Notes under the pieces: model-generated
The model's input: only the letters and a program-made list of their open reading frames with translations
Told to the model about the DNA's origin: nothing
Databases searched by the model: none
Program-made: the position numbers and the translations under genes
Part shown: piece by piece, positions 25,151 through 61,758 of the stretch
Numbering within the stretch: position 1 is the first letter of the stretch
How the letters are laid out: the number at the start of each line of letters is the position of its first letter
Assembly: GCA_018296165.2 (NCBI GenBank)
Contig: JACKQL020000018.1
Span: 372,001-436,000 of the forward strand
Reading direction: 5' to 3'
Source: Termitomyces sp. T153
Lineage: Eukaryota; Basidiomycota; Agaricomycetes; Agaricales; Lyophyllaceae
Length of the DNA: 64,000 bases

Positions 25151-25162
25151 GAGGGGGGGTGA

Positions 25163-34743: not shown

Positions 34744-34756
34744 AAGTATGTAGTAG

Positions 34757-36182: not shown

Positions 36183-36281
36183 GTCTAACTTATGTGGGGG
36201 TGGAGAGACGATGAGGTGAGGAGAATTTCGTATAATTAATGACACGCCCACAAAACAAAATATCAATGTATACATACACAA

Positions 36282-36641
36282 TGTGACGCAAGCGTAGACA
36301 ACGGTTAAGTCACACGAAAAAGATAAGAGAGAGTTCACTCGAGAGACTGTGATAAGTGCTCGAATCTCCCTAAATAGCTAGGGTGTACAAAGAACTCTTT
36401 ATATACCTAGCTACGGGTGAAAGTAAATTAGAAAATAAGTCGATCGTTATAAGAATAGACTGAAGATTGTAAGTAGAGTAATGAGATAGGAGTAATGTAA
36501 ACTACTTTTAATACATTATACTGGTCGAGTCGGGGTCATTGTCAGTAGAATGGTAGATTAGGAGAGTTGGGATTAGTCGTGACGAAGAGTAGATCTGTCA
36601 CGAGTCAGTGGAGGTGAGAGGCGGGTCACGACTCCATCACA
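36282..36641 (-). repeat. 3' LTR of element K (360 bp, CpG-retaining copy)
   Basis: Plus-strand TGTGACGCAAGCG...ACTCCATCACA; in its own orientation TGTGATGGAGTCGTGACC...GCTTGCGTCACA. It is preceded (minus strand) by the purine-rich CCGGAGGGCGTA. Contains a TATATAAAG-type box (~36400-36408 complement). A second copy of identical length lies at 61399-61758. The flanks CACAA and TACGC do not match, as expected for one LTR of an element. Confidence 0.85.
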
Positions 36642-36661
36642 TACGCCCTCCGGGCCGTCAG

Positions 36662-37550
36662 TTAGCCCTTCTTTCTGCCATGTCCTCGTCGCACTTGCTG
36701 GACCTCCTCAGATTTGCTCAGGGCCACTGTGTCGTCCTCAAGTTCTCCAGGTGCATCTAAATCAGTGTCCAAGAATTCCTCCAATTTCATTGATAGCCGA
36801 ACTCGCAGCACCAGAGACAGGTGGGTTAGGAGTCAAAGCAACAGGAGTCAATGGGGTGGTTGGGGCAAGGGTCAGGCTCAGATCGACAACTTGTGCAGTG
36901 GGAGCTGGTGTCATTACTGCTGGGGTATACTGAGCTGGGGGAACGTAGTCTTTGACAGCTGTCAATACGTCCTCAATGACTTGTTGGGCCTGCTGGGGGA
37001 TCTGGGCATAAGGATTAGGTGTTCTGTCATAGCTGACGTGATGTCCGCCACAATTCCTGTTGCAGCCACAATGACCACGCGCCACATGCCTCGCAAACAC
37101 ATTGTCCACCACTGAGCAATTGAGCTTCATGCACTCCCAATGTTCCTCAGCCTCCCTTGAGTTCCACAGCTGGATTGCGACCTAGCGACACATCAAACCT
37201 GTGAAGAGACATTCGTCCTCGCAATTTTGGACAGTCAACTCGTTGCGCTGCACCATTTTGATGGCCGTGCTGAGGTTGGAGAGTGCTGAGTCCCCTACAT
37301 CAAATGCCGCTTCATTAATGTCTGTCCCCTTTGCAATTTGTCCATCTTCCCCTTTCCTAGCAGATTTGAACAGGAAGGTGTTGGTGGAGTTGAATGCCTG
37401 CACAAAGGTGTCATAAGCAAAAGGGGTATCCACACCATTGTTGTTTGGAGCTTGTAAGTTCTTGTGGTGAGCCAGGAATCCATGGACCTGTCCTGCATGC
37501 AATGACTGACTGCCACCTACTCCATTTATAGTTGTCTTGGGTGGAACCAT
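36662..37550 (-). pseudogene. Element K gag-like protein (Cys/His cluster, acidic C-terminus)
   Basis: Starts MVPPKTTINGVGGSQ at 37550. It continues FAYDTFVQAFNSTNTFLFKS and KGTDINEAAFDVGDSALSNL to a TAG at 37182-37184, then in the same frame KLNCSVVDNVFARHVARGHC with a CGCNRNCGGHH cluster and a Pro/Thr-rich part. A 1-nt frameshift near 36775 shifts to DLDAPGELEDDTVALSKSEE and the basic end RRGHGRKKG, stopping at 36662-36664. About 296 codons in all. It lies directly upstream of a polypurine tract and LTR. No protease, RT or integrase accompanies it, so K may be a non-autonomous, one-protein LTR element or the remnant of a larger one. Its 5' end meets element C at ~37560. CpG retention ends inside this gene, near 37300. 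Confidence 0.65.
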
Positions 37551-37581
37551 GCACAGTTAACATGCTCAAGAAGAGGGTGAT

Positions 37582-38305
37582 TCATGGAGTAAACCATGGT
37601 GAGTGGATGAGGATACAAGTTGTTATGCTTACTGAGGGTGGTTGTGTGACCAGCAGGGCAAGGACTGGTTTGGGCTGATGTGCAAGTGTGTCTTGTGAGG
37701 GTGGGGTTGGGACAAGGATGAAAGGAACAGGAGTCAGTGCACTGATATCATTGGGGCCGAGGAGTGTGTGAGCAAGGCTGCTTGGGGCCCTCTTGTTGGC
37801 TTTTCCCTTCTTTTTGTATCTAGGACATTGGCAAATTTTCATATACCCCACCAGCAAATTTGCTTGCTTCTGATCAGCCTCTGGAATTTTTTCCATGCCA
37901 ATTGGTAAATCCCCAATTTTCAAGACACCCTGAAAATCAAGATAAGCTGTCATTGCATTCAAATGTTTGGCTTGATCATATGGCAGCCAGGTGATGTCAC
38001 CTGGCTTCCACTGCAACTGGAACACTGAGTCTGTCCCTCACCCAACATGTGAAATAATTTTATCAACTGCCCATTCTGGCTCAACATCCTCAGGACAGCC
38101 TACTTGTTCATCCAGATGCCCAGGGAACAGATGGTCATCATTTGGTATATGGACCCTTAATAGTGTTGTATGTACTACATGATGGACCCCATGGTTGATC
38201 ATTGTTGCAGGTAGCACTAAGTGGAATGACTGATTCACAAAGTCTTTGGTAATTTTGTATGGCCCAACAAACTTTGGAATCAATTTTTGGGCCAGGCCCT
38301 TTGCA
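37582..38305 (-). pseudogene. Element C integrase C-terminal part and tail
   Basis: Continues the integrase after the Copia insertion: FVGPYKITKDFVNQSFHLVL (the GPF/Y-like module), GVHHVVHTTLLRVHIPNDD and EPEWAVDKIISHVG. A chromodomain-like LQWKPGDITWLPYDQ follows, then a Pro/Ser-rich tail. It has a stop after HVG and changes such as HVVHTTLL where family members have HPVFHASLLR. Non-functional. Confidence 0.82.
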
Positions 38306-38310
38306 AAGGT

Positions 38311-38643
38311 TGTTAGATGCTGATGATGTGGGATCACCGTAAGTGCCACAAGTCCGAGACCGAGAGGGTCAATAGATTATATTTTCATTCTTGACATTAA
38401 TTACCTTCACCCCTAGACTCGAATATATATATATATAATATATCTACAGTGCATACACCCCCAGTCAAATATACAATGACTGAGGGTGAGTAACCATACC
38501 TATCTCACTATACCAAATTACCATACTTACAACCTACCTTAGTGCACATACTTACTTGTGTATTATAGGTAGGATCCCCAGTCAAATATATGATGACTGA
38601 GGTGCATGTACTTACTCATGTATTATAGGTCCTAAGTTTAACA
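38311..38643 (+). repeat. 5' LTR of Copia J
   Basis: Contains an AT dinucleotide tract (~38426-38444) and two copies each of CAGTCAAATATA.. ATGACTGAG (a CAGTCA/TGACTG inverted pair) and CATACTTACT.GTGTATTATAGGT, about 110 bp apart. These are internal tandem modules, perhaps regulatory. Confidence 0.9.
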
Positions 38644-38855
38644 GGTTATGGCAGAGTGCTGCTCCATACACTGAAGTACGACCTATAGGACCTGTGTTTT
38701 TTTGGACCACATGTCCGATAATTGGTGGGCTACTGCCCTGACTTTGTTTTTCTGATTACTGAGCACAGTGCATCATGTATTGCCATATCATGGACCTGAG
38801 GACACACACTGTCCCAGACTACACTTGCCCCATCCCCCCCCTCTTGATCTTCACT

Positions 38856-41800
38856 ATGGATCTGACTCTTGATGTTACTGAGAGCCCTGGAAAACCTACT
38901 CTCAACATTTCAGATGATGTCACAAAGGAAATGTGATGGGTTGACAGTGTTACACCCACAATCCCACAGATCAAGGTCTTGCTCCATTACTCTAGAGAGT
39001 TGTTAGCAAAAAATGATGGTAAATGGATGCCCTGGTTGAAGTTCATGAAGCTTGAACTTACTATGTCTGGCTTGTATGAATATGTTTTTGATCCTCCTGA
39101 TATTCCTCACAAATTATTTGAGCCACGGGCATATTGTAACTGGCATTTGAATAACTGTCTTGCCCTCTCCTTTTTGATGCTGGGACTGTCAGAATCAGAA
39201 CACAACTTGGCTGATGATTCCATTGATGCAAAGGCACTGTGGGAGTACCTACAGGTGTGATATGGTGGAGCAGGACTGGTCCAGCAGGTTTGCCTTCTGC
39301 AGGAAGCACTAACTACAAAGTGTTCCCCTGCTGAACCTATCATAAAGACAACTGACCACATCTATAAGAAGATCAACCATGCTTTTGATGTTGGAGAAGT
39401 GACCAAAGACCTCCTACAGTCCATTGCCACACTATCCTCCCTATCTGACAACACACTGTATGCAAACGCATGATCAATCATCTCATGAGATCTTGCAGCA
39501 GCGATGGCAGCAATACTCTATGGCCCTGATGATATTCATCATTTCCTGGAAAATGAACAAATGCTATATGATGCCAACAAGAACATTCAGGACATGCACC
39601 ACACTGTACTGGCGGCCCGATCAACAACTCAGGGCAGTGACCTAGTCTGTGATGTGTGTAGGGCAAAGGGACAGACAAATTACATAGGACATACCAAACC
39701 ATGGTGCATCCTAGAGGGTGGTGGTATGGCAGGGAAGACACTAGATGAAGCAAGGGCTGCTCAGGTGGCATACTATAAGGCTAAGAAGGACAACTGTGAC
39801 AAGAAAAAAGGCATAACAAAACTCACCTTTACTCTGGCTGGAGGCTCAGCATTTACAGTAGAAGGCAATGCAAGTACACTTGCTGCCTACCTTGCCAGCC
39901 AGATGAGCAGGGCACCAGATATGGCACCTAAAGCCTTGTTTGCAGGCCTGGCATCAGATGCCATTCCCAGTGAACTCATGGATGCTGAGAGTCTTGAGAT
40001 TGATGCATGGATTGTGCTGGAGGAGGAGTCAATGGTAAGCATTGACTGGAAAGGCTATACATTACAAGCTACAACTAAAATCCCACAACCCAGTGCCACC
40101 ATAACACTTCACACATGCCCCTTCTATCTAGACTCAGGTGCAACTGTACATATCTCCCCAGATGCCACCTATTTCATATTCCTCACACTCATACCAGATA
40201 AACCAATTTGAGGTATAGGCGGATCTGCAATATCTGCCACTGCTATTGGAAAAATGAACCTACAACTTGCTGATGGCTCCCATCTGATACTCAACAATGC
40301 TCTCTTTGTGCCCAAAGCCACTGTTAAACTTCTTTCAGTTAGCTCTCTGGTAAAGAAGAATGGGATATTTACCACGTTCAGTGATGCAAGTGCAACATTA
40401 TTCAAAGGTTCAACAAACAGATTAGTGGCAAATGGAACTCTGATTCCCATGAAGAACTTGTACACACTTAATCTGTACACTGAATATGCACTTAGTGTTC
40501 ACATGTCACCCAATATTGTTATGTGGCACTGCTGTCTGGGTCATGCTAACTACCAAACCATCATGGAAATGGCAAAAAGGGGCATAATTGAAGGTATGCC
40601 ATGCATCTTCACTACAAAGCCACTAAGGTGTAACAAATGCATCCTTGGCAAACAGACCAGAACACCTGTCCCAAAAATTAGAGAAGAAGGAGTTGGACAC
40701 AGAGCAACATGCAAGCTAGGGATAGTGTGGGTGGATCTAACAGGGAAGCAAGATGTGACATCAAGAACTGGAAATAATTATGTCATGAATATTGTCAATG
40801 ACTATACAAATAAACCATAGTCCATACCCCTGAAACTGAAGAGCAATGCATTCAGAGAGCTTCAAGCATGGATTCTTGCCAGACAGGTTGAAACAGGCCT
40901 GAAAGTGGGCATACTTTGATCTGGAAATGATTCAGAAATCATAGCTCGAGAGAATGAGGAATGGTACAAGTCTCAAGGAATAACAACACAATGTGGAGCT
41001 GTTTACACATCAGCACATTTAGGGCAGGTAGAATGCATGCACAGGACGCTCATGGGAAAAAGTATAGCCATGAGACTATATGTGAAGTACCCTCCATTCC
41101 TCTGGGATGAATTCTATTTAACAGCAGCTCATCTGCATGGGAAAACAAGGACATCAGCAGTAAATGATGTCACACCAGATGAGCTATAGTATGGCAAGAA
41201 GCTGAGTTACTCTTACATCTGTGAGATAGGCTGCTGGGTTTTTGTCCTCATACTAGGCAAACATAACTCTAAAACCTATGAAAGGGCAATTGAATGTACA
41301 TTGATAGGTTATGACCTGAAAGCCAAGGCTTATAGATGCTATGATAAAGTGACAAAACAGGTATACAGCACATACCATGTCAAGTTTATCAAACATCAAG
41401 ACAATTCTAACACAGCAAGCCTGACAATACCCTCTTCAGCTCCAGAACACACCACACCTGATTCATCCACAGCCACAATGGCTCCAGACCATGCAGAGAT
41501 CCCAACTATTGATGCCATCACAAAAGGGGTGCAAGACCAACCATATATAGTTCCAGATGATGACAAAGAAACCACACCTCCACTGGGCATGCCTGTGGAC
41601 CTGATTCCTCAAGATAATCCTGAGGGTCAAGACCAACTAGCTGAGCATATCCAAGACCCACCCCAATTCTCAACATGAATCCCAATACCAACAGCTCAAA
41701 GTAGACTAAACAATGCACCAGAAACACCAGTGGAGCATGGTATATGGGAATCAAGAGAATCAGCAGACTGAATTTGTGAAGCTAAAGCTGACCATCGGCA

Positions 41801-43507
41801 TGCAATCAAGGAACTATATTGCAATGACAATCAAAATCATCAAATTCCACAAGCAGCTGGAGATGAAAATGTGGACCTGGATTGTGCATTAGCAACAATT
41901 AATGAGACAGAGGAAAATCTAAGCATAAATGCAGAGGATGTCAACCCAGAGGTGCCAAAGACATGGAAACAGGCACAAGATTCCCCCGATGCTGAAAGAT
42001 GGAGATCAGCCTATGAAGATGAACTCAAGTCCTTGAAGGATATGGGAGTATACCAACTAATCCCTAGACATGAGGTACCGTCAGGTCATTGAATACATCG
42101 AGGCTGACCAGTATTTGCACTCAAGCATGACAAAAAAGGCAATGTCATACAATTTAAGGTTTGACACATATTGCAGGGATTCAATCAGATATATGAACAA
42201 GAATACACAAAAACTACCTCACTGACAGCGTGTGCAGAATTGTGGCAGATCTTACTTCATCTGGTGGCAATGCAAGGCTGGGATGCCATGCAGATTGATG
42301 TAAAAACTGCATTTTTATATGGTGTTCTACCAGAGGAGGAGACTACTTACATGGAGCAACCACAGGGCTTTGAGGAACCAGGCAAAGAAGACCATGTCTG
42401 TAAGTTAGAAAGGGGACTTTATGGGATGAAGCAGGCAGGGTGAATTTGGAACTGTATCTTGAATAAAAACATGGTAGGAAGGTAGAGGTTCACAAGGCTA
42501 GCCTGCAAATCCTGTGTCTATTACAGGAAGTCCAATCATGGAATAGTCATTGCTGCTGTTCATGTGGATGACTTCTTGTCAGTTGTGAGCTCCAAACATG
42601 CAAACAAACACTTTAAATCCCAACTAAGAGATGTCTGGACTATCTCAGATCTGGGCACACCATGACAAATTGTGGGGATTGCAGTTGAATGGGATAGAGA
42701 GAATAGGGCAGTGTACCTGTCACAAGGACCCATTATTGACAAGTTAATCTCGCAGTATGGCCAGAAGGAGGCCAACCCACTCTTGCTGCCAATGGAGCCA
42801 GGTTTGAAGTTATGGAGAACTGATTATTCCAAGTTGACACAAAAGGAATGGGATGATATTGCCAGGATACCTTACCGATGATTGGTGGGGGGCTTGATCT
42901 GGCTTGCTATATCCTCTTGGCCCAACATACAATATGCTGTCAAGCAACTCAGTCAGTATTTCAATTCTTATTCAGTCATACACTGGAACGCGGCCATACA
43001 TGTGGTTCAATACTTGAAAGGTACAAGAGATATCAGACTGTGCCTGGGAGGTACATCTCCAATCTCTCTTGTGGGGTTCACGGATTCAGATTGGGCTAAT
43101 TGCCTAGACACACAACATAGTGTTGGTGGGTATGCATGGTCTCTAGGATTGGGTGTCATATTGTGGGCTTTGCAAAAACAAAAAACAGTAGCAGCTTCAT
43201 CATGCAAGGCTGAGTACATGGCAGCCTTCAAGGCTGCACAAGAGTGTGTGTGGCTGTGAACTCTCCTCCAGGCAATTGGCCACCCTACTGATAACACAAC
43301 TACTCTCATGTGTAACAACAATGCAGCCATAAACTTATCTGAAGACCCAATGTTGCACTCTTGGGTGAAACATGTCAACATCAAGTACCACTTCTTATGA
43401 GAGCATGTAGCCTCAAAGGAGCTCACTGTCTGTTATATTAATATGAGGGACAACATTGCGGACATATTTATGAAACCCCTTCCCCTACCACATTTTTCTC
43501 GACTTTG
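38856..43507 (+). pseudogene. Copia J gag-pol polyprotein with many nonsense codons, no frameshift
   Basis: A single frame runs from ATG 38856 to ~43507, interrupted only by stop codons. Gag: LKFMKLELTMSGLYEYVFDP and a zinc knuckle CDVCRAKGQTNYIGHTKPWC (~39648-39707). Protease LDSGATVHISPDA (~40131-40168). Gag-pre-integrase MWHCCLGHANY (~40521) with CNKCILGKQTRTP. Integrase VWVDLTGKQDV (~40728). RT: IDVKTAFLYGVLPEEE (~42295), HVDDFLSVV with the catalytic DD kept (~42560-42590). RNase H: VGFTDSDWANC (~43071) and ASSCKAEYMA (~43195), ending ADIFMKPLP. All catalytic motifs are recognisable. Substitutions alone have inactivated it. Confidence 0.93.
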
Positions 43508-43579
43508 AAAGATCCTAGGACTATCATGAACAACGTTTCACATGAGGAGGAGCCTTATAGCACTTTTGGTGAGGAGGAG

Positions 43580-43907
43580 TGTTAGATGCCAATGACGTGG
43601 GATCACTGTAAGTGCCACACATCTGAGACCAAGAGGGTCAATAGATTTCATTCTTGACATTAATTACCTTCACCCCTAGACTCAAATATATATATATATT
43701 ATATATCTACAGTGCATACACCCCCAGTCAAATATACAATGACTGAGGGTGAGTAACCATACCTATCTCACTATACCAAATTACCATACTTACAACCTAC
43801 CTTAGTGCACATACTTACTGGTGTATTATAGGTAGGATCCTCAGTCAAATATACAATGACTGAGGTGCACATACTTACTCGTGTATTATAGGTCCTAAGT
43901 TTTAACA
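43580..43907 (+). repeat. 3' LTR of Copia J
   Basis: TGTTAGATGCCAATGACG...TTTTAACA, preceded by the purine-rich GAGGAGGAG (43571-43579). Right flank AAGGT. Confidence 0.9.
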
Positions 43908-43912
43908 AAGGT

Positions 43913-46455
43913 GATGTTTTTTGTTGATAAGTACACTAAATCACTCTTACTGAATGGAACTTCCCTCCTCTTCCTGTTAGCATCCCTCACTTGTTTGGTA
44001 TATGCTGCCAAAATGCTATCATGTGCAGCTATCAAGGCCAATTCCCTGTTCAAGGCAAAGTTGCAAATCCCAGGAAACTCTGAGCTTGGTGCCAATGTCC
44101 AGATCATCAATTGAGGCATCCTTTCTGTGTTCAGAAAAAATGGTGTGTATTCTGTGCTCTCATTTTGTGCATTGTTGATTGCAAACTCAATTGCTGGTAA
44201 TTTTCAACCCAGTCTTTCTGCTTCTCATCAACACATTGAGGAAGCATCTGAGTTACCATCTGATTGGTATGCTTTGCGGTACCATCTGTTTCAGGGTGGT
44301 ATGCACTTGACATTTTGAGTTCAGTTCCTACTAACCTGTGTAATTTCCACCAAAATCCACTGGTGAGCAATAAATAGACTTTGGAATCCCATGTAACTTA
44401 ACTTATACACATGCTCAAACACTAATTCCACAGTGTTGGTTGCCTTGTAGCTCACCCTGCTGGGTACAAGGTGTACCATACCTGTTAATAGGCATATAAC
44501 CACTGTGATGGAGTCAAATGTTCCATCCTGATTTCTAGACTCATGTAAGGGCCCTACAAAATTGATGCCTATTGATTCCCAAGCTTGACCTGGCACAGCC
44601 AGTGGATTCAGCAGGCCAAAAAGTTTTTGATTGCTTGGTTTGCTCCTCCTGCAAGTCATATATGTCTCATAGAAGGCTGTAGTGTCACAAACTATCTCCT
44701 GCCACCAAACATGATCCTTAAGATATGTGAGTGTTTTGACAGCTCCTAAGTGGGCCAACAAGGAGTTTACTTCTGATATAACAACCTCTTGAAGGTTATG
44801 CCCCTTGATATAGGCTCAAGGAATGCACAAATCTTTTTGATCTCCCTGGTTTAAGTATACCCAATCATCCTCAACTACAAAGTTTCAGTATTACTTGGGC
44901 TTCTGCAAGATGGATTTAAGAAAACCATCATACATATACCTTCCATGTATGGCTGCTGGTAAGTCAATCCCATCCTCAAACATCATACCAATTAATGATG
45001 TGTTGCTCTGGACAATAGAATTAGCTGCCTTGCCCTCTAATGAGTCCTCTGTCTTCAATGTTGACAGTGGTAAGCCTTCCTCAGTGCTCTTCTTTGAAAC
45101 CAGCTGTTGTGGTCCATGTATCCATATCCTTTGTTTCATTCAGCTTGTGAACTCTTTTGATGTTTCAGAGCACCCCAATTCTGCTGCAGACAAAGGTTTC
45201 TGCCCCCTACAAGGTTTTGTTGTCTGCATAGTATCCACTGCACTTGCCTCTAGTCCTGCTAGCAATGGCACCATGATATAATTGTTGATATGTGGGTCCT
45301 CTTTCACCACATTGTGATATGTGTATTCTGATCTAGCTCTTTCTATGCCAGGTGCATCATCTGAGTAAATCTGTGATAGTGCATCTGCAAGTAACATTAT
45401 CAACACCTATGACATAAACCACTGCAAAGTCAAATTCACCAATCTTTCCAACCCACTGTGCCTGTCTCCCTGACAGGTTCCTTTGTTTGAGTAAGTGTAC
45501 TGAACCCTTGTGATCTGTCAGCCATTGAAATGTGTGCCCTGCAGTATATCACAATGGTGCATCATAGACTCAACCCCTGCCAACATCTTGATCTTGTGTA
45601 CTGGGTAGTTTTGTTGAGCACTACTCAGTTTTTCCAAGAAGAATGCTGCTATTTTTGCCTCATTCCATGTTGGCCCTTGGCAAACAACACCTGCAATGCC
45701 AGTTGCACATCCATCTGTAATTGAGAATACTGATGGAGCATTATATTTAATTGGCACCCTATAGTGAGTGTGTCCCTGACATACAATGTGTTTAACATCC
45801 TCAAACACTTGCTGATGTGTGTAACTCCAGCAGAATGGAATCTTACCACCTGTCAGCCCATGTAGCACTGCCATTGGTACACAGACTGAGGCTGGGTCAT
45901 TTGCAAGGTATCCTACTGAAACAACAAAACCTCTTAGCAACTCTTTATTTGTCAGGACTCTCCATGCAAGTACTGAGTCAACTTTTTTGGGATCCATCTT
46001 GATGCCCTTGTCATTAATTATCTGGCCCAGCAGATTGAGTTCTGGCTGTATAATGAAGAGTTTGTCCCAGCCTAAGTAAAGCTTGTCCTTGCTCAGTATG
46101 TCAATTACTAACTTTACATGCTGAACATGGTCCTCCAACATATCAGAATAAATTACAATATTGTCAAGGTACACATCCATGAACCTGCCTATATATGGCA
46201 AAAATATATAATTCATCAGGGACTGAAATGTTGCTGGTGCATTGCAGTGCCCCTGCTGTAGGACATTGCTTAGCATGTTCCCATCAGGTGTTGTTACTGC
46301 TGTCCAATGGGCATGCTCTGAGACCACACAAATTTGTTTGTCAGCATTCTTTTGATCCAACAATGACCTGTACTTTGCTGATGCCACTCTCTAGAAGATA
46401 CTCTGAATGTCTGGGAATGGTGATGACATTTTTATTATATTGGCATTTCTTGCCA
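43913..46455 (-). pseudogene. Element C RT, RNase H and integrase
   Basis: RT contains KMSSPFPDIQ, CNAPATFQSLMNYIF and a catalytic box DVYLDNIVIYS (~46145-46180), the second Asp being Asn. RNase H holds SITDGCATGIAGVV and YPVHKIKMLAGVES, where family members have HEIEMLAG, so the Glu is Lys. Integrase has a zinc-binding ...YMTCRRSK, ESIGINFVGPL and SSAYHPETDGTAKHTNQMV, then stops at the J insertion. Multiple stops (e.g. near 45406, 44761). This and 37582-38305 were one ORF. Confidence 0.9.
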
Positions 46456-47462
46456 TCAAGTCATACACAGTCCAAAGCTTTGGAGGATTTGAACCTGGTT
46501 TGTGATCATCAGCATTGGAACTGTGTTCCTTGCACTTGTCACCTTGTACTGACCTGTCTGCAAGTAGTATTCCCTTTCCTTGGCCCATTGCTCATGGAAT
46601 GCTTCAGGACATTTTAATGGGTGCCATTGATATATGGCAGATTCATCTATCAATAGAATGTGATGGTTGACTGCTTGTAGTGGCAATAAGTCTGTTTCAT
46701 CATCCTCTTTGCATACCAGTAATGCATACTTTATGAGTTCTTGGTGAACACATTCAATCTGGTCATTGTAGGCTTTGACAGCCCATACTGCTATTTGTGA
46801 CACATCACTCCTTTTAATTAGCTTTGCTGTGTTGTGCCTTACTACCACTCTTGCTGGGTTGAGCCCTACTAATACTCTATGCTGAAATAACCATGGTGTC
46901 TCCAGAATGAGGTCATACCCTGACAGGTTGGCAATATCAAAGTAGTGCTCTTCATTGATTTCCTGATATTTCATGTTTACATTTGTCCCAAAGTTGATCT
47001 TGGAGCATGATCCCTGTACTGCTAGATGTAGTGATAATGGCTTTACAAACTCAATCCATGGCACACATGATTTGCCTGCTAATGTTGTTGACATGAAGTT
47101 ACCCAATGAGCCTGTATCAATCAATGTGCATGCCTGCTGTCCACCAATTTATACAATAATTACAACTGGCTTTGGCACTATTCATGTGCCACTTGGCCCA
47201 TGGTCATCATTGTCATCACCCCAGTTGTCATCCAACCTTGTGTTAAAACTTGTCAAGTCAAAGTTCTGCTCATTGTGAGCTTTGGCATTTATTTCAGAGT
47301 CTGACTCATTGCAATCTTTCAGATCTTGTATCCTACTTGGTCCAAGCACTGCCTTCAACCACTCTTTCAATGCTGAAGTGTTGACCCAGTCTTTAAGCAA
47401 CCCCTCAAACTGCAGACATGCATGTAACCATGCATCCTCTTCAAAGATCTGCTGTGCATTGA
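46456..47462 (-). pseudogene. Element C gag remnant and aspartic protease
   Basis: Gag tail NTSALKEWLKAVLGPSRIQD with an acidic DDNWGDDNDDHG (47182-47400). The retropepsin MIDTGSLGNFMSTTLAGK (from 47124) has D-T-G, followed by NFGTNVNMKYQEI and YFDIANLSGYDLILETPWLF, the conserved post-catalytic block. The frame then leads to the RT (VNHHILLIDESAIYQWHPLK). Only the end of gag is present; the first part is missing. Confidence 0.86.
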
Positions 47463-47856
47463 TGTGCTCCTATGCTGCCTAGCTCTCATGCAGGAAAACA
47501 AAAGAAACCTAAACACTGGCAAGCAGATAGGGTAGCCAGCAATATGAAGTGATGAGGGCAAGTCAGTAAATGTCCCAGAGGACTAGAGTGCTAAAAGGGA
47601 TGGGAATGAAGTGAAAGTACAAGTGGGAAAAGTTGCTATTGCTAGCCTAAGTTGCTAGATGGTAACATAGGATAGCTAAGTTGCTGGGTAATGAAGGAAA
47701 AAAGGGGTGGAGACAAAAGAGTTCCTAGGATAAGTCACTAAGGAGAGAGAGAGATAAATTGCTAAGAAAGGAGGACTGAGCAATAAAGGTGGTAGTAGGG
47801 ATGGAAGGGAAGCAAAGTTGCTAATGATAGGAAGGATAGATAAAAGGGGAGGACAA
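47463..47856 (-). repeat. LTR of element C, 3' portion (split by element H)
   Basis: Plus-strand start TGTGCTCCTATGCTGCCTAG is the reverse of the family-C LTR end GCATAGGAGCACA. It matches the b module at 7500-7999 in inverse orientation. It ends at the H target site GACAA (47852-47856). Confidence 0.8.
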
Positions 47857-48215
47857 TGTAAGGGCAACTTCCAGGAGTGGAAGCTCAACCACACAGCTAG
47901 CAGAGGGGAATCCAAAGTATATTATCAAGGTAGTCAACAATACAAATAGTAACTAATCACCTAGCAGAGGAGAATCCAAAGAGAACAAGTCTAAGGATCC
48001 CTGCTGCTTGGTGTAGCACATCAGCAGGTGGCAAAGGCATGAGAACAACTGTACAGAAGGCCAGAGCTAGCCCTAACCCTAGGAAACTGCTTGACAAGGA
48101 ACCACAGAAAGCTCCAAGAGTCTCTGGAGATCTCTGTGGGTCTGGAATGAGCTGCAGAGATTGCTGCAGAGGTTGGAAATGGAAGTTGGAGGTCAGAAAT
48201 GGAAGTCCCCTGACA
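47857..48215 (-). repeat. 3' LTR of element H (359 bp)
   Basis: Keeps both copies of the GGGGAATCC/GAGAATCC CTAGCAG segment with the ~43-bp spacer, as in the B LTR and the solo LTR at 60623. The polypurine tract of H, in complement, follows at 48216-48230. Confidence 0.9.
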
Positions 48216-52361: not shown

Positions 52362-52366
52362 GGAGG

Positions 52367-54290
52367 CCCCCAGCTCCAGGTGGTGTTCTTCACAGTGAGG
52401 TTGAATAGAGAGTGGGCATGATGTGAGAAGTTCTGGATGAACCTCTAGTAGAAGTTAGCAAAGCCTAGGAAGGCCTGCACTTCCATCTTGTTCTTGGGCT
52501 CCAGCCACTCCACAACACTCACCACCTTCACCAAATCCATCTCTGCAGCTTTGTATAAGATGATCAGCCTGAGATACTTGATCTCAGTTTGCTCAAACTT
52601 ACACTTCTCTGGTTTGAAATAGAGCTGGTGATGGCAGAGGCATTCCAAGACAAGGCACATGATCTGGCAGTGCTCCTACAATGTTTTGGTGTAGATAAGG
52701 ATGTTGTTGAGGTATACACACACTGTGCCTTCAGCAATGAGGTTCTGGAAGATATTGTTCATCATTGTCTGGAAGGTAGCTGGGCTATTGGTGAGTCCAA
52801 AGAACATGACAAGAGGTTCAAACAGTCTCTGGTGGGTCTGGAAGATGGCCTTCTATTTGTATCCCTCCTAGATGCACATGTTATTGTAGCCCCCACTAGA
52901 CATCCAGTTTAGTAAAGTATTGCACACTCCAGAGGTTATTTATGAACTCAGAGATGAGGGGGAGAGTTCAGTGGTTCTTTATGGTCATGGTGTTAAGAAC
53001 TTGGTAGTCCTGGACTAGTCAGAACAAGCTGTCCTTCTTTTTAATGAAGAAGACCAGAGAAGCCATCAGGGATTTGGAGAAGTGGATGTGGCCAGAGTCC
53101 AGGTTCTCTTGCAGAAAGGCATTGATCTTATTCTGCTTCTTAGGTGCTAGTGTAGACCTTACAGCTCAAGGGCTTAAAATCCAGCATTAATTCAATAGCA
53201 TGGTCCCACTGTTTGTGCTTCAGGAGTGAGTCAAACAAGGCCTTAGAGAACACATCCTCAAATGCATGGAGGTATGGAGACACAACATCCTGGAATGCCA
53301 GAGTGTGGAGTTGGCAGCAAATGCCTAGGCTAGCTGCTGGGATGTGGTATGGCTAGCTCAGATCTTTACAGTGGAGAGCAGTGAGCATAAGGTGTTGGTG
53401 TAGATCTGGTCTCCAACTTTCACCGCCTTGTCCAGGAGCTCTGGGTTGCATATGCCTTCAAACTCCCCTCTTAGTCCCTTCTCTAGGGCCCTGCCACTGC
53501 TCTGGTCATCCTTGTAGAGGGCCTCTCTATGGAGGAATGCCAGGGGCAAGGGGTCCAGGAGGTCTAGATCTGCAAAGGAGAGATGGCTAGTGTGGCATGC
53601 CCAGATGGCCACATGTTCTCAAACTTTGGCCTGGCACTCTTCTCTGATCTTAGTGGTGCAGGCAGAGCACCTTCCAGGAGCACTGGCTCATAGTTACCTT
53701 GCCTCAGGCCCAGTCTACTTTGGGTTTGTGCTTCTAGAGCCATGTGAACCCAAGAATCATGTCCTGCTTGCCTAAACTGGTGACAGCAAAGACTGCACAC
53801 TCAGTGTGATCCTAGTAGCAGAGGACAAAGTCTACTATGGAGCTGATGGTGCCAGCTTTGTTGGGTGTTCTGTCAATTTTGAACACCAGGATGGGCTGGA
53901 GAAGTGGCTGCATGGTCAAGCCATAGCACTGTACAAACTCTGAGTCTAGGAACAGTCCTGTCACTCCACTGTCTAGGAGAGCAGTGACTCCACAAGTTTG
54001 CTGGGTGTCTGTGGTCTCAATTTCTATATTGAGGCACAATGAGTTTGCAGACAGACTTGAGGCCACTACATACTGCCAGGGTAGTTGGCACTTCTAGGCA
54101 GGGTGGTGCCAGCAGAGCCTAGCTGGTGTTAGGGAGCTTGGCTGGGACTCTGGAGTTGGTGTTTGTATGTCTGGAGGGGAAAGCTGAGGTTCTTCTGTCT
54201 TAGAATGATTGGCATTGGGAAGGGCAATTTCATTTTCTAACAACAGACATAAGAACCTGTTAGTACCTGGTAATGGAGGCATACACCTCA
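52367..54290 (-). pseudogene. Element H protease, RT and start of RNase H
   Basis: Protease: TTDTQQTCGVTALLDSGVTGLF (~54045-53980) with D-S-G. Then LGKQDMILGF-like HMALEAQTQSRL, and SHLSFADLDLLDPLPLAF. RT runs ~53230-52440; its catalytic box (complement ~52725-52690) reads VCVYLNNILIYT, both Asp being Asn. The RT end is LYFKPEKCKFEQTEIKYL then VEWLEPKNKMEVQAFLGFAN. It joins 50295 across element I. Non-functional. Confidence 0.9.
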
Positions 54291-55506
54291 TCCATTGCTC
54301 AACTAAAAATCCTCCTCCAGGCCTGGGGGGGTGCACAAGTGCCAATCTCCTCTGAGGTCAACTTTGGTGCCAGCTCATCTGGTGATGGAGCTACAGTGGC
54401 ATCCTTTGTGGCCAACAGCTACAGAAGAAGCTCCTCTTGCTCTGCCATAGAGAGTTAGTGCACCACCAGACTCAACAGGCAATGTTATGTGAAGTGCCTC
54501 AGTTTTTGCATCTCCAGCACAGTAGCAGCACAGGGCAGTGCTGTTGGGCTGCATCTATGTCCATGGAAATGCCCAGTGGCAAGGAGCATAGCATGGGGAT
54601 GGCCAGAGCAGGGATGGGTGCTGGGAGTACAGGAGCAGAGTAATGGAGACTGGCAACTAAAATAGAGCACTGTGTCAGGTGCAAGTGGCAGAGCTCCCAT
54701 TAGATCTCCATAAGCTGCCACTGGATCCTAGGCCACCTTGTACCAGGAGGCAATCCTTTCATCATCTGGGTGGCCCTCAGCCAGATTGTCAATGTGCTCT
54801 ATCAGTGTGAGGTGCAGGCCATCCTAGAATACAAGGCACAGTTGAAAACCATCAGGGTAGGCAGCTTGCTTGATTAGTGCCTGGAATGAGCCAACATACT
54901 TTTTTAGCATCTGCCTCCCTTGCCCATACTGCTCCCTGTCACACAGCACTAAAGTGGCAGTTTTTGCAGGGTCAATTGGGAAAAACTCCACTCAGAAGTC
55001 CTCTTTGAAGGCAGCCCAATCTGCAAAGCTTCTGACACCTCCAGGGTGTTAGAACACCCATAGCACATAGGTGGAGGCCTGTCCAGTCTTCATATATAAC
55101 AGCATCCAAGCTATCTTCAATGCATCAGAGTTGGAGGTGTCTCTGCTGAGGTGGATGTAGATAAGACAGAACTGAAGGAAGTGCTCCCCACTAGAGTGAG
55201 CACCATCATATGCATCTAAGAGCACAGAGCATGGGATTTGCAGCTGGAGAGTTATTGGGGCTACAGAAGTGACTACTGGAGCTGCCAGGGGTGGTGCAGA
55301 GATAGGAGGCAGGTGCTCTAGCAGCACTGGAGGAATTGGGAAATATGATTAGTGGTCTGACAGAGGGTAGAGAGTTTGGTTGTGTGATGGGTGAGAGACA
55401 ATTGAGTCAGTTGCACCTGGTTCTCTAAGTGTAGCAGGTGAGTCCAGGCTTTGTTCTGAGGGGCTAGAGCCTCAGGGAGAGTGTCTGGATTGGCAAGCTG
55501 AGACAT
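54291..55506 (-). pseudogene. Element H gag
   Basis: Starts MSQLANPDTLPEALAPQNKA at 55506. It continues HLENQVQLTQLSLTHHTTKL, SVLLDAYDGAHSSGEHFLQF and SDALKIAWMLLYMKTGQAST, which parallel copy B's gag (DALKIAWVLSYMKAGLALTY). The knuckle region is decayed (LLCWRCKN.. at ~54535-54510). The gag frame ends at GAGGATTTTTAG (complement ~54315-54304), the same T5-stop junction as in copy B. Several stops. Confidence 0.86.
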
Positions 55507-55613
55507 AGAATTCCACAGGTGCTTAAGTCTGGTGGAGAAGTGACAGATAGGGGCTTGGAGGTTCCCTGCAGGCTATGAGGGGCTTCCAGACCAGAGTCAG
55601 TGACTTGTTCTGC

Positions 55614-55908
55614 TGTAAGGGCAACCTCTGAGAGCAGTGGCTCAATCATGCAGCTAGCAGAGGGGAATCCAAAGAGAACAAGTCTAAGGATCCCTGCTGC
55701 TTAGTTCAGCACATCAGCAGGCAGTGGAGGCATAAGAACAACTGTACAGAAGGCCAGAGCTAGCCCTCACTCTAGAGAATTGCTTGACAAGGAACCAAAA
55801 AAAGCTCTGAGGGTCTCTGGAGATCTCCAGGAGTCTGGAGCAAGCCATGCAAATTGCTGCAGAGGTTGGAAATGGAAGTTGGAGGTCAGAAATGGAAGTC
55901 CCCTAACA
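55614..55908 (-). repeat. 5' LTR of element H (295 bp)
   Basis: Same ends as 47857-48215 but lacks 63-64 bp between two short direct repeats (CTAGCAGAGGGGAATCC), consistent with a slippage or recombination deletion. Confidence 0.9.
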
Positions 55909-55913
55909 GACAA

Positions 55914-56797
55914 GGACATTTTGCTAAGGTTTTTAGGGACCTAGTGACAGAAAAGAGATGGAGACAAAGGGAATAAGTGACATTGGTAAAAACTGAGGAA
56001 CAAACACAAACTAGTTGCTAATATCACAGAGACAAAAGACACTATAGAGTACCCATGATTGGTACCCATGCTAAATCAAATATGAGGTCACTGAGGCTTG
56101 TTGCTAAGCCTATAACAATGACAAGAGTAGACAGAAAAGAAATCTGAAGCTGGTAAGCTGAGAGCTACTGAGGGGGAACAATAAATATGCTTGTTGTTTT
56201 TGGGTCTCTATGTACAGGCAGTATTTATACTGTTTGTAGGTATAGTATTTAGAAAGGAAATATAGTTGCCACCAGCAATGGCATCTGCCAAAATGTCCAT
56301 GATACATACTGGATGTCAGTATAGTAACAAAGTATTTGTATGTAATGTCAACAAGATGCATAATAAATGTCAGTAACAAAAAAAGAGCATACTTAATGTC
56401 AATATCTGAAGAATAGACACACACCATTCAGGTATATTTGTAAGCAAGACAAGAGAAATGATCAGTAAGGGGTCACATGGTCTTTAATATATCTGTTTTT
56501 GAGAATAAGTATTGTTGTTGCCAGGTAATGTCACTAGTGATTGTCACTAAAGAAGGTCTTGACCTTATCTTTCTAGATCCAAAGGCTAGATTCCACATGA
56601 TGAGGCTCATGATCCAGAGGTCTCATGGTTGCTAGGATCCTGTGCAATGGCTATATTGTTCCAGACCTTGGGGCTAGATCCCATGTGATAAAGTCATGTG
56701 ACTCATACATACCTGTACTGTGTTCACATCAGGTGCTGCCCAGATAAGATAGTCCATGATATCAGTAACAGTGCCCAGAAACAGTTGGGCCTTATCA
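55914..56797 (-). repeat. LTR of element C, 5' portion (split by element H)
   Basis: Reads, minus strand, from TGATAAGGCCCAACTG at 56797 through a TATA-like AACAGTATAAATACTG (~56235 complement) to the H insertion site. It matches modules a and b of the 6437-8707 array in single a-b order. With 47463-47856 it gives one ~1.28-kb LTR. Confidence 0.78.
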
Positions 56798-58475
56798 GCA
56801 TACCATGCCTATAAGTCAAACAGCAGATCTGATAGTAGGTCAATGTCCAACAGTTCCCAGTGCAGGCCCTGATCTGCCATCCAATAGTAATCATAAATTA
56901 CTAGCATGCCATCTCCATCACTGTACAACTCAAAGTGTGTCCTGTATTTCCTTTTGATAAGGTGATCCAATGAATAAGGTGTGCCCTTGAGCAGCTCTTC
57001 TCTAACCCACTCAATGATATAGTACCCTAGACATATGTCCATATATCAGTCCTCCAAACCTTCTGGGACCATTCCACTAATCTGCAACTGCTTTACAGCA
57101 TACATATATGCCAGCACCACCTCAGGGTCTTCAAGGAAATCCTCCCAAAGGTATACATCTTTCTCAACAGCATGATCTCTCATGACAAAAGATTAACTAC
57201 TCCTGTCCTGCTCAATCTCAAATCAGCCCATTTTTAAGTGTTCTGGTCCATCTCCTGGATATTGCTGTGCATCCAGATTCTCCATCACATGAGCCCTGAC
57301 ATCTCCCACTGGATGGCTGCTCCAATGGCATGCAAGTAATCCCTCTGCCATGCATTTATCACATCCATCCCAGCATGGTGTCAGCAATGCTTGCTCCCAC
57401 TCCAATACTTCTTCAACCAGCTTATTCTGAAAGAATCCAATCAGGTCAAGTTCCAAGTCCAGTAAGTGCCTCCTTTTGACCTTTACTGATCTCCCATCCT
57501 GACACCCTGATATCAGGAAATCCTTCCCATGTGGTGCAACAATCCATCTTGTTTTGTAGGAACCATCCTTGCTTACTGGGTATGTGTGCTCCCCTTCTTT
57601 GAGTGGCTTCCATACCTGATGCCAGCACATTGCCCATCCATGGTGCAGACTTCCACTTTGTCAGGTCTACTTTTGCCACTGGCAATCCCAGTCAGAACAT
57701 ATGGCTCTCAGCCCATCATAGAGGAAGGTTGAGCTCTGCATCATATGATTGGTGAGTATCTATTATCTCTCCATCAAGAAAAGGTGACTGGTCATTCCAT
57801 CTTATGTAGTCCACAATCATGTGTTGTCCTCCATTAGTTTCACATACTGAAAATGTCATGCCTTCTCCTTGTTCCAGTGTTTATGAACCAGGGTAGGGTG
57901 CCATCTGTTCCAGTACTTCTACTGCACATTGTATCACAAAATCCCCAATACATGGCCTCAATGTTACTGAAGTGTCAACCTCCCAGTGCATCACTGATAT
58001 CTGTATTGAGTCAGTTGTTCCCACAGCTTTAGACTGTTCCCAAAGAGACTCAGTTATTACAAAATCAATTTCAATGTTATGACTTGCAATTCCTGGTGGT
58101 TTGTTCTTCCCATTCCTTACTAAATTCCCATCTGGGCAATTGCATGCTAGATGTCCTATCACATACATTTGAAGCACCTATTTTGTGCACAATGTTCATT
58201 GTATTCTCTGCTGCTCAGTTGCTTGACTGACTTTTTTGAGGGCTGTTCTTGTTGTCTCCTCCACGGCAGGTTACCTCTCATGAAGGTAGCTGCAGTCCTA
58301 TTCTGTTGCTGACCATTGCTAACTGACTTTCTTGTGTCTGATGTCACATCTGTTGACCCCACCCCCCAGCTTCCCTAGGGGTTCTGCTCACATCTCTTGT
58401 TTCTTTTTCTTGGACCTCCATTGTTGTTGTGTCAGTTTGTGACCTCTTCTGCAATTTCAATCCATTCCACCACAC
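56798..58475 (-). pseudogene. Element M gag-like zinc-knuckle region and unknown downstream ORF, decayed
   Basis: A CCHC knuckle NRCFKCM..GHLACNCPDGN (~58180-58130) follows a basic Gln-rich stretch (RKSVSNGQQQNRTAATFMRG). Downstream, frames with CIGDFVIQCAVEVLEQMAPYPG, WKPLKEGEHTYPVSKDGSYK, FHLHTHW-like residues and HFELYSDGDGMLVIYDYYWM suggest a further acidic/aromatic-rich protein that I cannot assign. No RT or integrase follows before the C LTR at 56797, so the rest was lost or displaced. Many stops. Confidence 0.5.
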
Positions 58476-59285
58476 AATGTACATCAATCCACAAAAATAC
58501 CTCAGAGTGTAGACCATTGATATGCCTGTCTCATATTACATACCTTGGAGTGCTCAATATACCTTGAAAACTGACTGAAAACTGTAAGTCAGGAAATGCC
58601 AAAAACTGTAGGCATTGAGCATGTACCAAAAGTAAAAAACCAATGAACCCAAAAGGCCCAGCTGAAAAAGAAAGCAGCCAGGAATGAGCAACCAATGATG
58701 AGGGAAACATAGAATAAAGATCATGCACTGATTGCCAATGAGCAGCAATGCTCAGCAGGTCCAGCTACTTGGCTACCTGAGTGTCTATTCTTGTAAAAAT
58801 CCTTGAAACCCTTTGAAAATGATGTCCCTACAACAAATCAACTGGCAAAAGTTTGGAACCTATGTCAAGCAAGGTAATGAAGTAAGGAGAAGCTGAAAGC
58901 AGAGAGAGCAGAGGAGAAAAAGTTAAGAACCAGCAATAATGGGGCCAAAAACCTTTAATGGTAAACCAGCCTACAACATACCCAACCAGCCACAAAAACA
59001 TGTGGATAGCACATTGGTCTGTGTGCCAATGATGGGCTATAAAAGGAGGAGGATTTTGAAGGAAAAAGACAAGCAATCTATGTACCACAGCTTGGAGATA
59101 CCCCAGGGAGTGGATCTCTTAGGCCTACAAGTTATTAGTTGCTTTGGGATCAGTTTAATATACTATTGAGCCCATTTATTTGTGTGAGACCATCTCAATC
59201 ATTAAATAAAATCATAAAAATATCAATTCTCATTCTACACTACATGGGATTGCATGTAACTAAGCCCTTGAACAACTGTGAACAG
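58476..59285 (+). other. Unassigned insertion-like segment with TATA box and poly(A) signal
   Basis: Non-coding, CpG-free segment interrupting the M gag reading. It has a good promoter-like GGGCTATAAAAGGAGGAG at 59035-59052, a CAATCATTAAATAAAATC polyadenylation-like region at ~59192-59210 and a possible end ATTCTACA (~59244). This is LTR-like architecture in plus orientation, but I could not find matching termini or a target duplication, so the boundaries are approximate. Confidence 0.35.
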
Positions 59286-60490
59286 AAAGTTTGATCAGTT
59301 GATCTAATCATTGACAGCATCAAACTTACATTTTGCATCACCATCCTGCCAAAGCCAACTCTGGATGCTATTTTGTAAGCCATTGAGTGTAGACCATCCT
59401 GCCAAAGCCCATTCTAGATGCTATTTTGTAAGCCATTTCATAGTTTCACAACTTTCTCCCACTCAGCAAAAAGTCCAATCATATTGTATAGCTCCTCCAG
59501 CCCATAACAGTAGTCTGTGACTGTTTTCCCATGTTGCAACAAGCATTGTAACTTATCCCATTGCTCCATCCAGTAGTTTATTGGAAAACAGTAATCACAT
59601 TTCTTCAAAGCACTCTTGTAAGTCCCAACTGTAGGGGTTAATAGCTATCTTCTAACTGTAAAAGTCATAGGCCTGTCCCCTTAGACCATGACAGTACAAA
59701 TACCCAGCATTCATGCTCCACCCTCCATACATAATTGGTCCCTTCTATCACAAACCAATAATAGGCTCATGCATCAGCCACCCTGTTATACTCTCTTGGA
59801 CAATGGGCTTAATTGGAGTACACTGCTTCTTTTTTTATCTGTTTTCCTGGCCATTCCCCTTCTAAGATCTAGACCAGCACCATCAGATCCACTTAGAGAC
59901 TTAGCATTTGACTCCTCAGTGTTATTACCCTCCATCATCTTGGTTGCTCCCTGTATCATGGTGCCTAGGTAGCTGCTTGCTGCTACCTGTGCCAAGGGCA
60001 TCACCTCAGAGAGCATCTCTTTATTGTTGCACAGAGATGCCTTACCACTGATGGCCCTTACCATGTGGTGAACAGCTGTAGCTGCCATGCATCCCTTTTC
60101 CTTGATGTCAGGGTCTGTTTTCTGACTTGGGGTAGATTCTTCCCTTTGGAAATCCTCCTTTTTTGCTGATGGGACTGTCAACCAACCCTCAATGTCCCTT
60201 ACTCCCAAGGTTCTTTTGTATTTTTGCAACTCTTCTTATTGCTTGCAGATGTCCAGTTCCTCTTCCAGGATATCAACTTTCTCCCAGTTCCTGAAATCCA
60301 GGCCTTTTTCCTTGGGACCCAATTTATTGAAGTTGATGCACACAGCCCTTGTGTGCCTGTCAAAAAGGTCTTTTTCCTTTCCTGTAATAGCTTCCTGTGC
60401 TAATGCTACTGCAATTTTCTGATCCAGTTTGAGCACTTTATTGACTAGACTACCAGTAGTACAATTTCTGTCTGCTTTAGTCATACTATT
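59286..60490 (-). pseudogene. Element M gag N-terminal part, decayed
   Basis: Minus strand from ~60484 (MTKADRNCTTGSLVNKVLKL): LAQEAITGKEKDLFDRHTRA, DFRNWEKVDILEEELDICKQ, then RTLGVRDIEGWLTVPSAKKE, later SALKKCDYCFPINYWMEQWD (~59610-59550) and TVTDYCYGLEELYNMIGL. The W...LQ...G.TV.DY...L..L pattern is retroelement capsid-like. A ~53-bp tandem duplication lies at ~59342-59440. Several stops. The knuckle part follows at 58180 after an insertion-like segment. Confidence 0.55.
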
Positions 60491-60622
60491 GCCTGCCTGA
60501 CCATAGCAACCTCTATCTGAGTCCTTGCTTCAGTTATGACTTGAGCTAACAGTTGTCCATGGACCCCCATCCTCCTCCATGGAGTCCATACTAGATGTTT
60601 TCAAAAGGTCAGCACTGCTATC

Positions 60623-60976
60623 TGTAAGGATAACCTCCAGGAGCAGCAGCTCAATCACACAGCTAGCAGAGGATAATCTGAAGTATATTAGCAAGATAGT
60701 CAACAATACAAATAGTAACTAATTACCTAGCAGAGGGGAATCCAAAGAGAACAAGTCTAAGGATCCTTGCTGCTTAGTGCAGTGCATCAACAGGCAGCAG
60801 AGGTGTGAGAACAACTATACAGAAGGCCAGAGCTAGCCCTAACACTAGGGAAGTGCTTGACAAGGAACCACAGAAAGTTCCAAAGGTCTCTGGAGATCTC
60901 TGGGGGTCTAAGCTATGGAGATTGCTGCAGAGGTCAGAAATGGAAGTTGGAAGTCAGGAATGGAAGTCCTCCAACA
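60623..60976 (-). repeat. Solo LTR of the A/B/H family (354 bp), TSD CTATC
   Basis: Plus strand TGTAAGGATAACCTCC...AAGTCCTCCAACA, matching 47857-48215 throughout, including the 63-bp segment missing from 55614-55908. CTATC flanks both ends (60618-60622 and 60977-60981). An internal-deletion relic of a former full insertion. Confidence 0.93.
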
Positions 60977-61398
60977 CTATCCCTTTCCAACTAAATTTTA
61001 GTCAACAACCCATCTATAGCCGATTTGCCACCATGCCCTAAGGCAGGGGAACTGGGCCTCTTGAGCACAGCATTTCTGTACAAGCATGTTATACCATCTG
61101 AGCTGAGCAAATTTGGCCAACCACTGGGCTGTGGGCTAGAATCACAAGTGGCAGTGTTCAGCAACATCAATTGGCTGCATACCTGTGTTCCCATTGGTAG
61201 TGTCAAGGTTTTTTATGGCCAAGTGAGTAGTCACCATTTTGACAAGTTTCCAAAGTTTTTGTGTGTAGTGTAAGAAAATTTTTGAGGTTTGTTGCCAAGT
61301 CAGAGGAGTCCCAGTTGATCAGACCAAGAGTAACCAGAGCAAGGCAATTAAGAAAGCAAGAGTTTTTTATGAATAGAGTGACTTGTTCAGTAAAAAAA
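60977..61398. other. Unassigned CpG-poor stretch
   Basis: Mixed coding-like frames (e.g. GLWARITSGSVQQHQLAAYL) but no recognisable domain. The left end continues whatever element the solo LTR inserted into. Confidence 0.35.
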
Positions 61399-61758
61399 TG
61401 TGATGCAAGCATAGACAACAGTTAAGTCACATGAAAAAGATAAGATAGAGTTCACTTGAGAGACTGTGATAAGTGCTTGAATTTCTCTAAGTAGCTAGGG
61501 TGTACAAAGAACTCTTTATATACCTAGCTACATATGAAAGTAAACCAGAAAATAAGTTGATTGTTATAAGAATAGACTAAAAATTGTAAGTAGAGTAATG
61601 AGATAGGAGTAATGTAAAATACTTTTAATACATTATACTGGTTGAGTCAGGGTCATCATTGGTAGAATGGTAGATTAGGAGAGTTGGTATTAGACATGAT
61701 GAAGAGTAGATCTGTCTTGAGTTGGTGGAGGTGAGAGGCAGGTCACAATTCCATCACA
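61399..61758 (-). repeat. Old copy of the element K LTR (360 bp, CpG-free)
   Basis: Exactly as long as 36282-36641 and alignable without gaps. All 16 CpG sites of that copy are TpG (9) or CpA (7) here, with about 21 other substitutions. No matching 5-bp flanks (AAAAA and CACAA). Confidence 0.9.

Follow-up and report, generated by a model that had tools for sequence, protein, structure and literature searches.

How can the two ends of what is very probably a single retrotransposon, which should have been alike when the element inserted, come to differ so completely in one dinucleotide? The question is raised by a 64,000-nucleotide stretch of Termitomyces sp. T153 (GCA_018296165.2, contig JACKQL020000018.1, positions 372,001 to 436,000), here called the window, in which a Ty3/Gypsy element on the minus strand carries a CpG-rich long terminal repeat (LTR) at 36282-36641 (LTR1) and a CpG-free one at 61399-61758 (LTR2). 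The analysis below suggests that CpG decay depends on where the DNA lies and not on how old it is. Both repeats are 360 bp long and align without gaps, as a preliminary description of this DNA had stated, and they differ at 37 positions. LTR1 keeps 16 CpGs and LTR2 has none, nine of these sites now reading TG in LTR2 and seven CA, which supports the earlier claim of a CpG-specific decay that hits both strands. The 21 differences previously counted over 328 positions outside these sites can also be recovered, but six of them make up three pairs (offsets 258/259, 261/262 and 324/325) at which one LTR reads TG and the other CA. Since five of the eight other copies of the repeat have CG at each of these pairs, each LTR must have lost its CpG there on its own, and in the opposite way to its twin, leaving 15 true non-CpG differences. 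The CpG-rich state is ancestral for the LTR family, as had been supposed, with CG in at least four of the eight outgroup copies at all 22 CpG columns; in the ten copies counted, both TG and CA are seen in 19 of these 22 columns, a mixture that is expected if CG is ancestral.

Several observations bear on whether the pair stems from one insertion. The pentanucleotide CACAA, which occurs at 0.17% of positions in the window and at 0.12% of those in the genome sample described below, stands at the outer edge of each LTR (36277-36281 and 61759-61763); perfect 5-bp duplications also flank three solo LTRs (L005, ACTCC; L006, GTTTA; L007, GTCTG). The LTRs of the element begin with TG and end with CA (TGTGA...TCACA), which together with the short target-site duplication is typical of Ty3/Gypsy, as is the order of protease, reverse transcriptase/RNase H and integrase on one (minus) strand between them; the reading frames are no longer intact, and the integrase holds a younger, nested element. 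When the 72.4-Mb assembly (307 contigs) was searched, the LTR was found at 11 places, an identical set being returned with either LTR as query. Two of these, L010 (C94:172542) and L011 (C219:6934), are near-identical duplicates on separate contigs (99.6% over 3,359 bp, about 3.4 kb) that represent either a haplotig or a recent duplication, and L011 was excluded from the counts for this likeness. Inward of LTR1 the sequence matches the DNA that adjoins the LTR in L010, and inward of LTR2 it matches the LTR-adjoining DNA in L003, L004 and L008. At four non-CpG columns LTR1 and LTR2 agree with each other but neither with L004 nor with the majority state among the seven further copies, the same count being one for LTR1 with L004 and none for LTR2 with L004, and two non-CpG states common to LTR1 and LTR2 occur in none of the eight other copies. 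No empty allele came up when the flanks were used as queries against the genome: the left flank returned only its own locus, and the right flank its own locus together with degenerate repeats at 65-77% identity. Very probably, LTR1 is the 3' LTR and LTR2 the 5' LTR of one Ty3/Gypsy element and they were identical at insertion; coming from one insertion, they would be equally old. The earlier view of LTR2 as the old copy is contradicted by the CACAA duplication and by the relative-rate count, in which nine of the 15 non-CpG differences arose in LTR1 and six in LTR2 (seven and five in a stricter count).

With changes polarised against the eight other LTR copies, each LTR started out with no fewer than 19 CpGs; the figure rises to 22 if three sites at which the two LTRs read alike are parallel losses. 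LTR1 has lost 3 of 19 (or 6 of 22) and LTR2 all 19 (or all 22), with a Fisher p of 9e-8 or 4e-7, respectively. LTR2 has lost CpGs at a rate that exceeds the pooled rate at non-CpG sites by a factor of at least 82, or of at least 50 when the upper limit of the latter is used; for LTR1 the ratio is approximately 7 (3/19) to 14 (6/22). Losses across the ten LTR copies are graded (0, 0, 1, 1, 2, 6, 13, 18, 18 and 22), the partial copy L009 covering 17 of the 22 CpG columns, and three columns of L008 and two of L004 reading neither CG, TG nor CA. Rate ratios were also fitted to the LTR pair of the nested element and to L030, L006, L009 and L031 only, with no fit made for CpG-free pairs or for the L026 and L032 tandem arrays; these fits count TG and CA products alone, which dropped one L030 site, two L006 sites and five L031 sites. 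Three duplications in CpG-rich DNA gave ratios of approximately 0.7, 3 and 5.

The left flank, single-copy in the genome as searched, contains a conserved, spliced host gene on the minus strand (35643-36182), with its ATG at 36182 and LTR1 99 bp upstream of it. The gene matched one protein in the search made, a hypothetical protein of Termitomyces sp. J132 (82% identity over 73% of the query), and its C-terminal exon (35643-35798) also matches this protein. In the non-element flank at 34407-36281 the observed-to-expected ratio (o/e) of CpG is 0.96. CpGs persist for approximately 1 kb into the element and then cease within about 100 bp, amid uninterrupted coding sequence: the 3' end of the internal region (36642-37308, minus strand) retains 23 CpGs in 667 bp (o/e 0.49), the next 1,002 bp (37309-38310) hold one (o/e 0.02), and the ratio stays at 0.00-0.01 to the end of the window, apart from 0.12 in the nested element (38311-43907). 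A two-state hidden Markov model (HMM), whose parameters were set for this analysis, places the boundary at 37266-37367 (90% span), inside a C-terminal extension of the pol polyprotein that runs across it on the minus strand (36765-38037, in pieces 36765-37181, 37185-37556 and 37585-38037). DNA homology to L010 ends at the boundary (37270), and the genome was therefore searched with the protein that spans it. At the L010 locus the two halves follow one another in the expected order, with 943 bp between them. The window version is accordingly treated as continuous, and a nested-insertion edge was rejected as the origin of the CpG boundary; in the L010/L011 copy it is the extension that is interrupted, by these 943 bp. 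Across ten copies (L011 dropped), CpG retention in the LTR correlates with the CpG o/e of the 500-bp external flank (rho 0.79, p 0.007).

The two CpG states also appear in a sample of the genome beyond the window. Seven large contigs were sampled at round coordinates, 10 kb at a time and in 20 stretches altogether, and the HMM assigned 88.0 of 199.7 kb (44%) to the CpG-poor state, with 26 boundaries of a median width of approximately 104 bp (31 to 639). Over 264 kb that include the window, itself not a random stretch, 117 kilobase bins are CpG-rich, 134 are CpG-poor and 13 lie between. The CpG o/e is 0.89 in the rich kilobases and 0.02 in the poor ones, where TG and CA are raised and TA is unchanged (TpA o/e 0.70 in CpG-rich versus 0.69 in CpG-poor kilobases), and, whichever of the four bases precedes it on the 5' side, residual CpG in poor bins stands at 2.1-2.8% of its level in rich ones.

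The products of CpG loss are balanced. In five LTR copies and the two LTRs of L030 they number 57 TG to 50 CA, and 53 of 100 neighbouring changes fall on the same strand; the strand count omits L008 (0/1), the product count omits L003, L006 and L008 (2 TG, 2 CA), and the strand and product counts of L002 and L001 include three sites possibly lost before insertion. In the leader next to LTR2, none of the 90 CpGs of L003 is kept (36 TG, 37 CA, 17 other), and 36 of 71 neighbours share a strand. Such balanced products, independent of neighbouring base and strand, are those expected of methyl-CpG deamination. A TCG context, as in Microbotryum, was rejected on the likeness of residual CpG among the four 5' bases. 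One young LTR element, L030:3558-9579, has a GTCTC duplication and an LTR divergence of 0.013, and its extent coincides exactly with a CpG-rich island within CpG-erased DNA. Its LTRs have lost approximately 20% of their CpGs; runs tests (P 0.24 and 0.30) show no clustering of the losses, which are approximately independent between the two LTRs (2 shared losses seen, 1.65 expected). This element is an intermediate stage of decay; the nested element with the AAGGT duplication has lost approximately 76% of its CpGs.

The genome also holds genes for a CpG methylation machinery, which is presumably active. A search with PF00145 gave four matches at three loci, resting on partial exons and not on whole genes, that were assigned to DNMT5 and DNMT1-RFD; none of them was recognised as RID, in an exon-wise search that can miss genes. 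The DNMT5 match is to 7r76 (E 1.7e-81), which is deposited as 'DNA repair protein Rad8' and which is taken here to be Cryptococcus Dnmt5. RFD matches lie beside both of the two DNMT1-like loci, one of which (L013, C4:1004558-1004737) has a TGA within its methylase match that is an intron, an error or the mark of a decaying gene, and SRA domain matches were found on three contigs. A search of the genome for Tet/JBP gave no match, and control genomes were equally silent. For thymine-DNA glycosylase (mug, TIGR00584) there was no genome match, and 2 of 14 control genomes matched, none over the cut-off, which is a weak hint that G:T repair is missing.

The reading favoured here, with a probability of roughly 0.75, is that compartment-restricted CpG methylation is followed by C-to-T decay, and that chromatin position, not age or repetition, decides the outcome. 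The locus (36282-61763) would be a single Ty3/Gypsy insertion, 25.5 kb long with others nested in it, that lies on the minus strand and whose LTRs were at first identical and held at least 19 CpGs each. One end would have landed 99 bp upstream of a gene's start codon, in DNA that is kept free of methylation, and the other would have faced repeat-rich DNA, where its CpGs became methylated, the DNMT5 and DNMT1-RFD enzymes probably serving the repeat compartment. Methylcytosine would then decay to thymine on either strand, spontaneously rather than enzymatically, at 50 or more times the rate of other sites in the far LTR (a figure that describes a ratio and not a chemistry), until every CpG of the far LTR and nearly every one up to the boundary approximately 1 kb inside the element had been erased.

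Several points weigh against this account. Methylation of the CpG-poor compartment is itself deduced from the sequence. A maximum-likelihood tree groups LTR1, LTR2 and L004 (92/89) without settling the order among the three. The CpG boundary and the point of interruption in another copy (37270) are no more than approximately 100 bp apart, perhaps by coincidence, and with flanks of 1.5 kb the correlation between retention and surroundings is weaker (rho 0.62, p 0.055). The rate ratio also varies, from approximately 36 (14-96) in the LTR pair of L030, below the 50 of the far LTR, to approximately 178 (41-910) in the nested pair. These wide ranges overlap; a simple clock does not explain the variation. 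Finally, the methyl-CpG ratio of vertebrates, which is roughly 10-15-fold, is exceeded here.

The most familiar alternative in fungi is a homology-triggered process resembling repeat-induced point mutation (RIP), with a preference for CpG, that mutates duplicated DNA in the sexual cycle. Such a process would account for the disappearance of every CpG from LTR2 and of the majority from L004 and L010. Repeats abound in the CpG-free parts of the window, and the authors of a study of Tricholoma matsutake, in the passages cited here, read a similar CpG hypermutation in this way (PMC6980582). RIP should mutate all duplicate copies, yet the gene-side LTR, as duplicated as its twin, was largely spared, with 3 of 19 CpGs lost against 19 of 19. 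RIP of the Neurospora type also leaves strand-blocked mutations and, through a preference for CpA, raises TpA. Here TpA is not raised, losses are graded among copies, and strand-blocked RIP was rejected on present evidence, from the same-strand counts (53/100 and 36/71) and from the unclustered and seemingly independent losses in the LTRs of L030. The PF00145 matches are those of DNMT5 and DNMT1-RFD, and none was recognised as RID in the exon-wise search. On all these points taken together, a RIP-like cause is improbable. The preliminary description had offered both mechanisms; its methyl-CpG deamination fits the data, and its RIP-like process fares poorly on the sparing of LTR1, the lack of strand clustering and the lack of a recognised RID-type gene. 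It is the unbiased products, the graded losses and the methyltransferase genes together that favour methylation with C-to-T decay over RIP. A different way of removing CpGs would be an active, chromatin-gated mutator, with enzymatic conversion of methyl-CpG or deliberate non-repair in sharply bounded domains, which it would strip of CpG, thereby favouring CpG-free transposons such as the family at 19234-25605 described below. This is unlikely, though slightly less so than RIP; if it were true, the process would not count homology as RIP does, and CpG-free transposons could no longer be methylated.

Other explanations concern the pair itself. If LTR1 and LTR2 were separate insertions of different age, CpG loss might simply track age; the LTR tree leaves the two unresolved as sisters, and decay over time is real, as the nested element and L030 illustrate. 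Against this stand the matching CACAA at the outer edges (a chance of approximately 0.12-0.17%), the element-internal sequence inward of each LTR, the shared derived states (4 versus 1 and 0) and the greater number of non-CpG changes in the CpG-rich LTR (9 versus 6), which make two insertions very improbable. Nor is it at all likely, although the odds are a little better, that LTR1 decayed as well but regained its CpGs through gene conversion by a CpG-rich copy, or that selection has kept them as part of the gene's promoter. Its place 99 bp upstream of the ATG and the abrupt end of the CpG-rich tract inside the element would suit such an origin, but conversion should have wiped out the states common to LTR1 and LTR2 and does not explain a non-element flank that is equally CpG-rich (o/e 0.96). 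As for selection, LTR1 has lost 3 to 6 CpGs and has 9 ordinary substitutions, so strong conservation of its sequence is not evident.

The remainder of the element can be followed on the minus strand. Beyond the pol extension lies a C-terminal SH3-like piece of integrase (38041-38376; PF24626, E 4.9e-8), followed by the younger nested LTR element on the plus strand (38311-43907; LTRs 38311-38643 and 43580-43907, target-site duplication AAGGT, 30 CpGs), which is presumably Copia-like and whose open reading frame at 39504-40208 has no Pfam match. Further integrase pieces occupy 43898-44815, that at 44324-44815 matching the H2C2 zinc-binding domain (PF17921) and the other two being without a Pfam match. 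Reverse transcriptase and RNase H follow at 45521-46390 (PF00078, PF17919 and PF17917) and an aspartyl protease at 46459-47148 (PF08284, 5.1e-5). The 12,640 bp at 47149-59788 hold two CpGs and consist of further CpG-erased repeats, taken as nested insertions and treated as one block without limits drawn for each. Open pieces without a Pfam match stand in the position of gag (59789-60529, minus strand), in a region that matches L003 and L004 beside their LTRs, and the 5' leader contains a 354-bp insert (60623-60976), across which L003 is continuous with a 5-bp overlap. This insert is related to 47857-48208 and 55550-55836, and all three have zero CpGs. An Rfam search gave no match.

The host gene and the 3' LTR share their CpG-rich segment (27790-37313) with a long interspersed nuclear element (LINE) whose 1,200-aa, stop-free open reading frame (30804-34406) carries RVT_1 and RNase H domains and lies beside the gene. 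The CpG o/e is 0.81 over 28000-34406, and this LINE is possibly a young insertion; the best match of its frame is a Lyophyllum shimeji protein, with Termitomyces sp. T112 among the at least 120 matches listed. Another LTR element in the window (19234-25605) has a GATGC duplication, and its LTRs share 98.6% identity. One LTR has a single CpG and the other has none, and TG nowhere stands opposite CA, so the element would have inserted almost CpG-free. At least 38 further full-length matches at 96-98% identity are found among the 40 of 2,385 candidates that were scored, and five copies examined hold 0-2 CpGs each. This seems to be a transposon family that has amplified recently and is nearly devoid of CpG, one that CpG methylation may be unable to mark.

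The pair is of value because the two ends of one insertion, identical at the start, came to lie in different surroundings, so that their contrast cannot be put down to age, sequence or copy number. It also gives a rate ratio resolved by position, at least 50-fold in the far LTR and approximately 7- to 14-fold beside the gene. The same test is applicable to every intact LTR pair in any Agaricomycete assembly. In the open-licence literature, searched with few sets of terms, the papers listed for Termitomyces with RIP were, by title, not on a Termitomyces genome, none was listed for CpG methylation, and the same twin-LTR test was not found. CpG-biased decay in Agaricomycetes is already known, and what is new is the control of equal age that twin LTRs provide and the size of the effect.

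A choice between RIP and passive decay of methylcytosine in Agaricomycetes is left open in the parts of two earlier studies drawn on here (PMC6980582; PMC4014442). In Tricholoma matsutake, transposons show a CpG-biased hypermutation whose nature as RIP its authors leave open, in a species described there as lacking rid and dim2 and having a masc2 homologue (PMC6980582). The likeness lies in C-to-T change biased to CpG in the transposons of an agaric; the difference is that the cited passages treat it as RIP-like and contain no LTR pairs from one insertion, whereas position and age are separated here (PMC6980582). In Rhizoctonia solani AG8, CpG hypermutation between nuclei has been described, with deamination of 5-methylcytosine named as an alternative to RIP (PMC4014442). 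The CpG-to-TpG bias in an Agaricomycete is shared, but genes and repeats are hit similarly in that fungus according to the same passages (PMC4014442), unlike the division seen in Termitomyces sp. T153, where 44% of the sample is CpG-erased. Neurospora-type RIP resembles the present case in the C-to-T mutation of repeats, as summarised in the portion of the source cited (PMC13297926). It differs from what is seen here, where TpA does not rise, strand blocks are absent, one of two identical LTRs is largely spared and no RID was recognised. Methyl-CpG deamination in vertebrates and plants yields TpG and CpA equally, has no further context and leaves protected stretches at genes, and the Termitomyces locus is like it in its balanced, context-free products and in the protection of its gene-side end. 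The difference is one of degree, vertebrates having a CpG o/e of approximately 0.2, compared with 0.02 in the CpG-poor kilobases of Termitomyces sp. T153, where the rate ratio is also larger.

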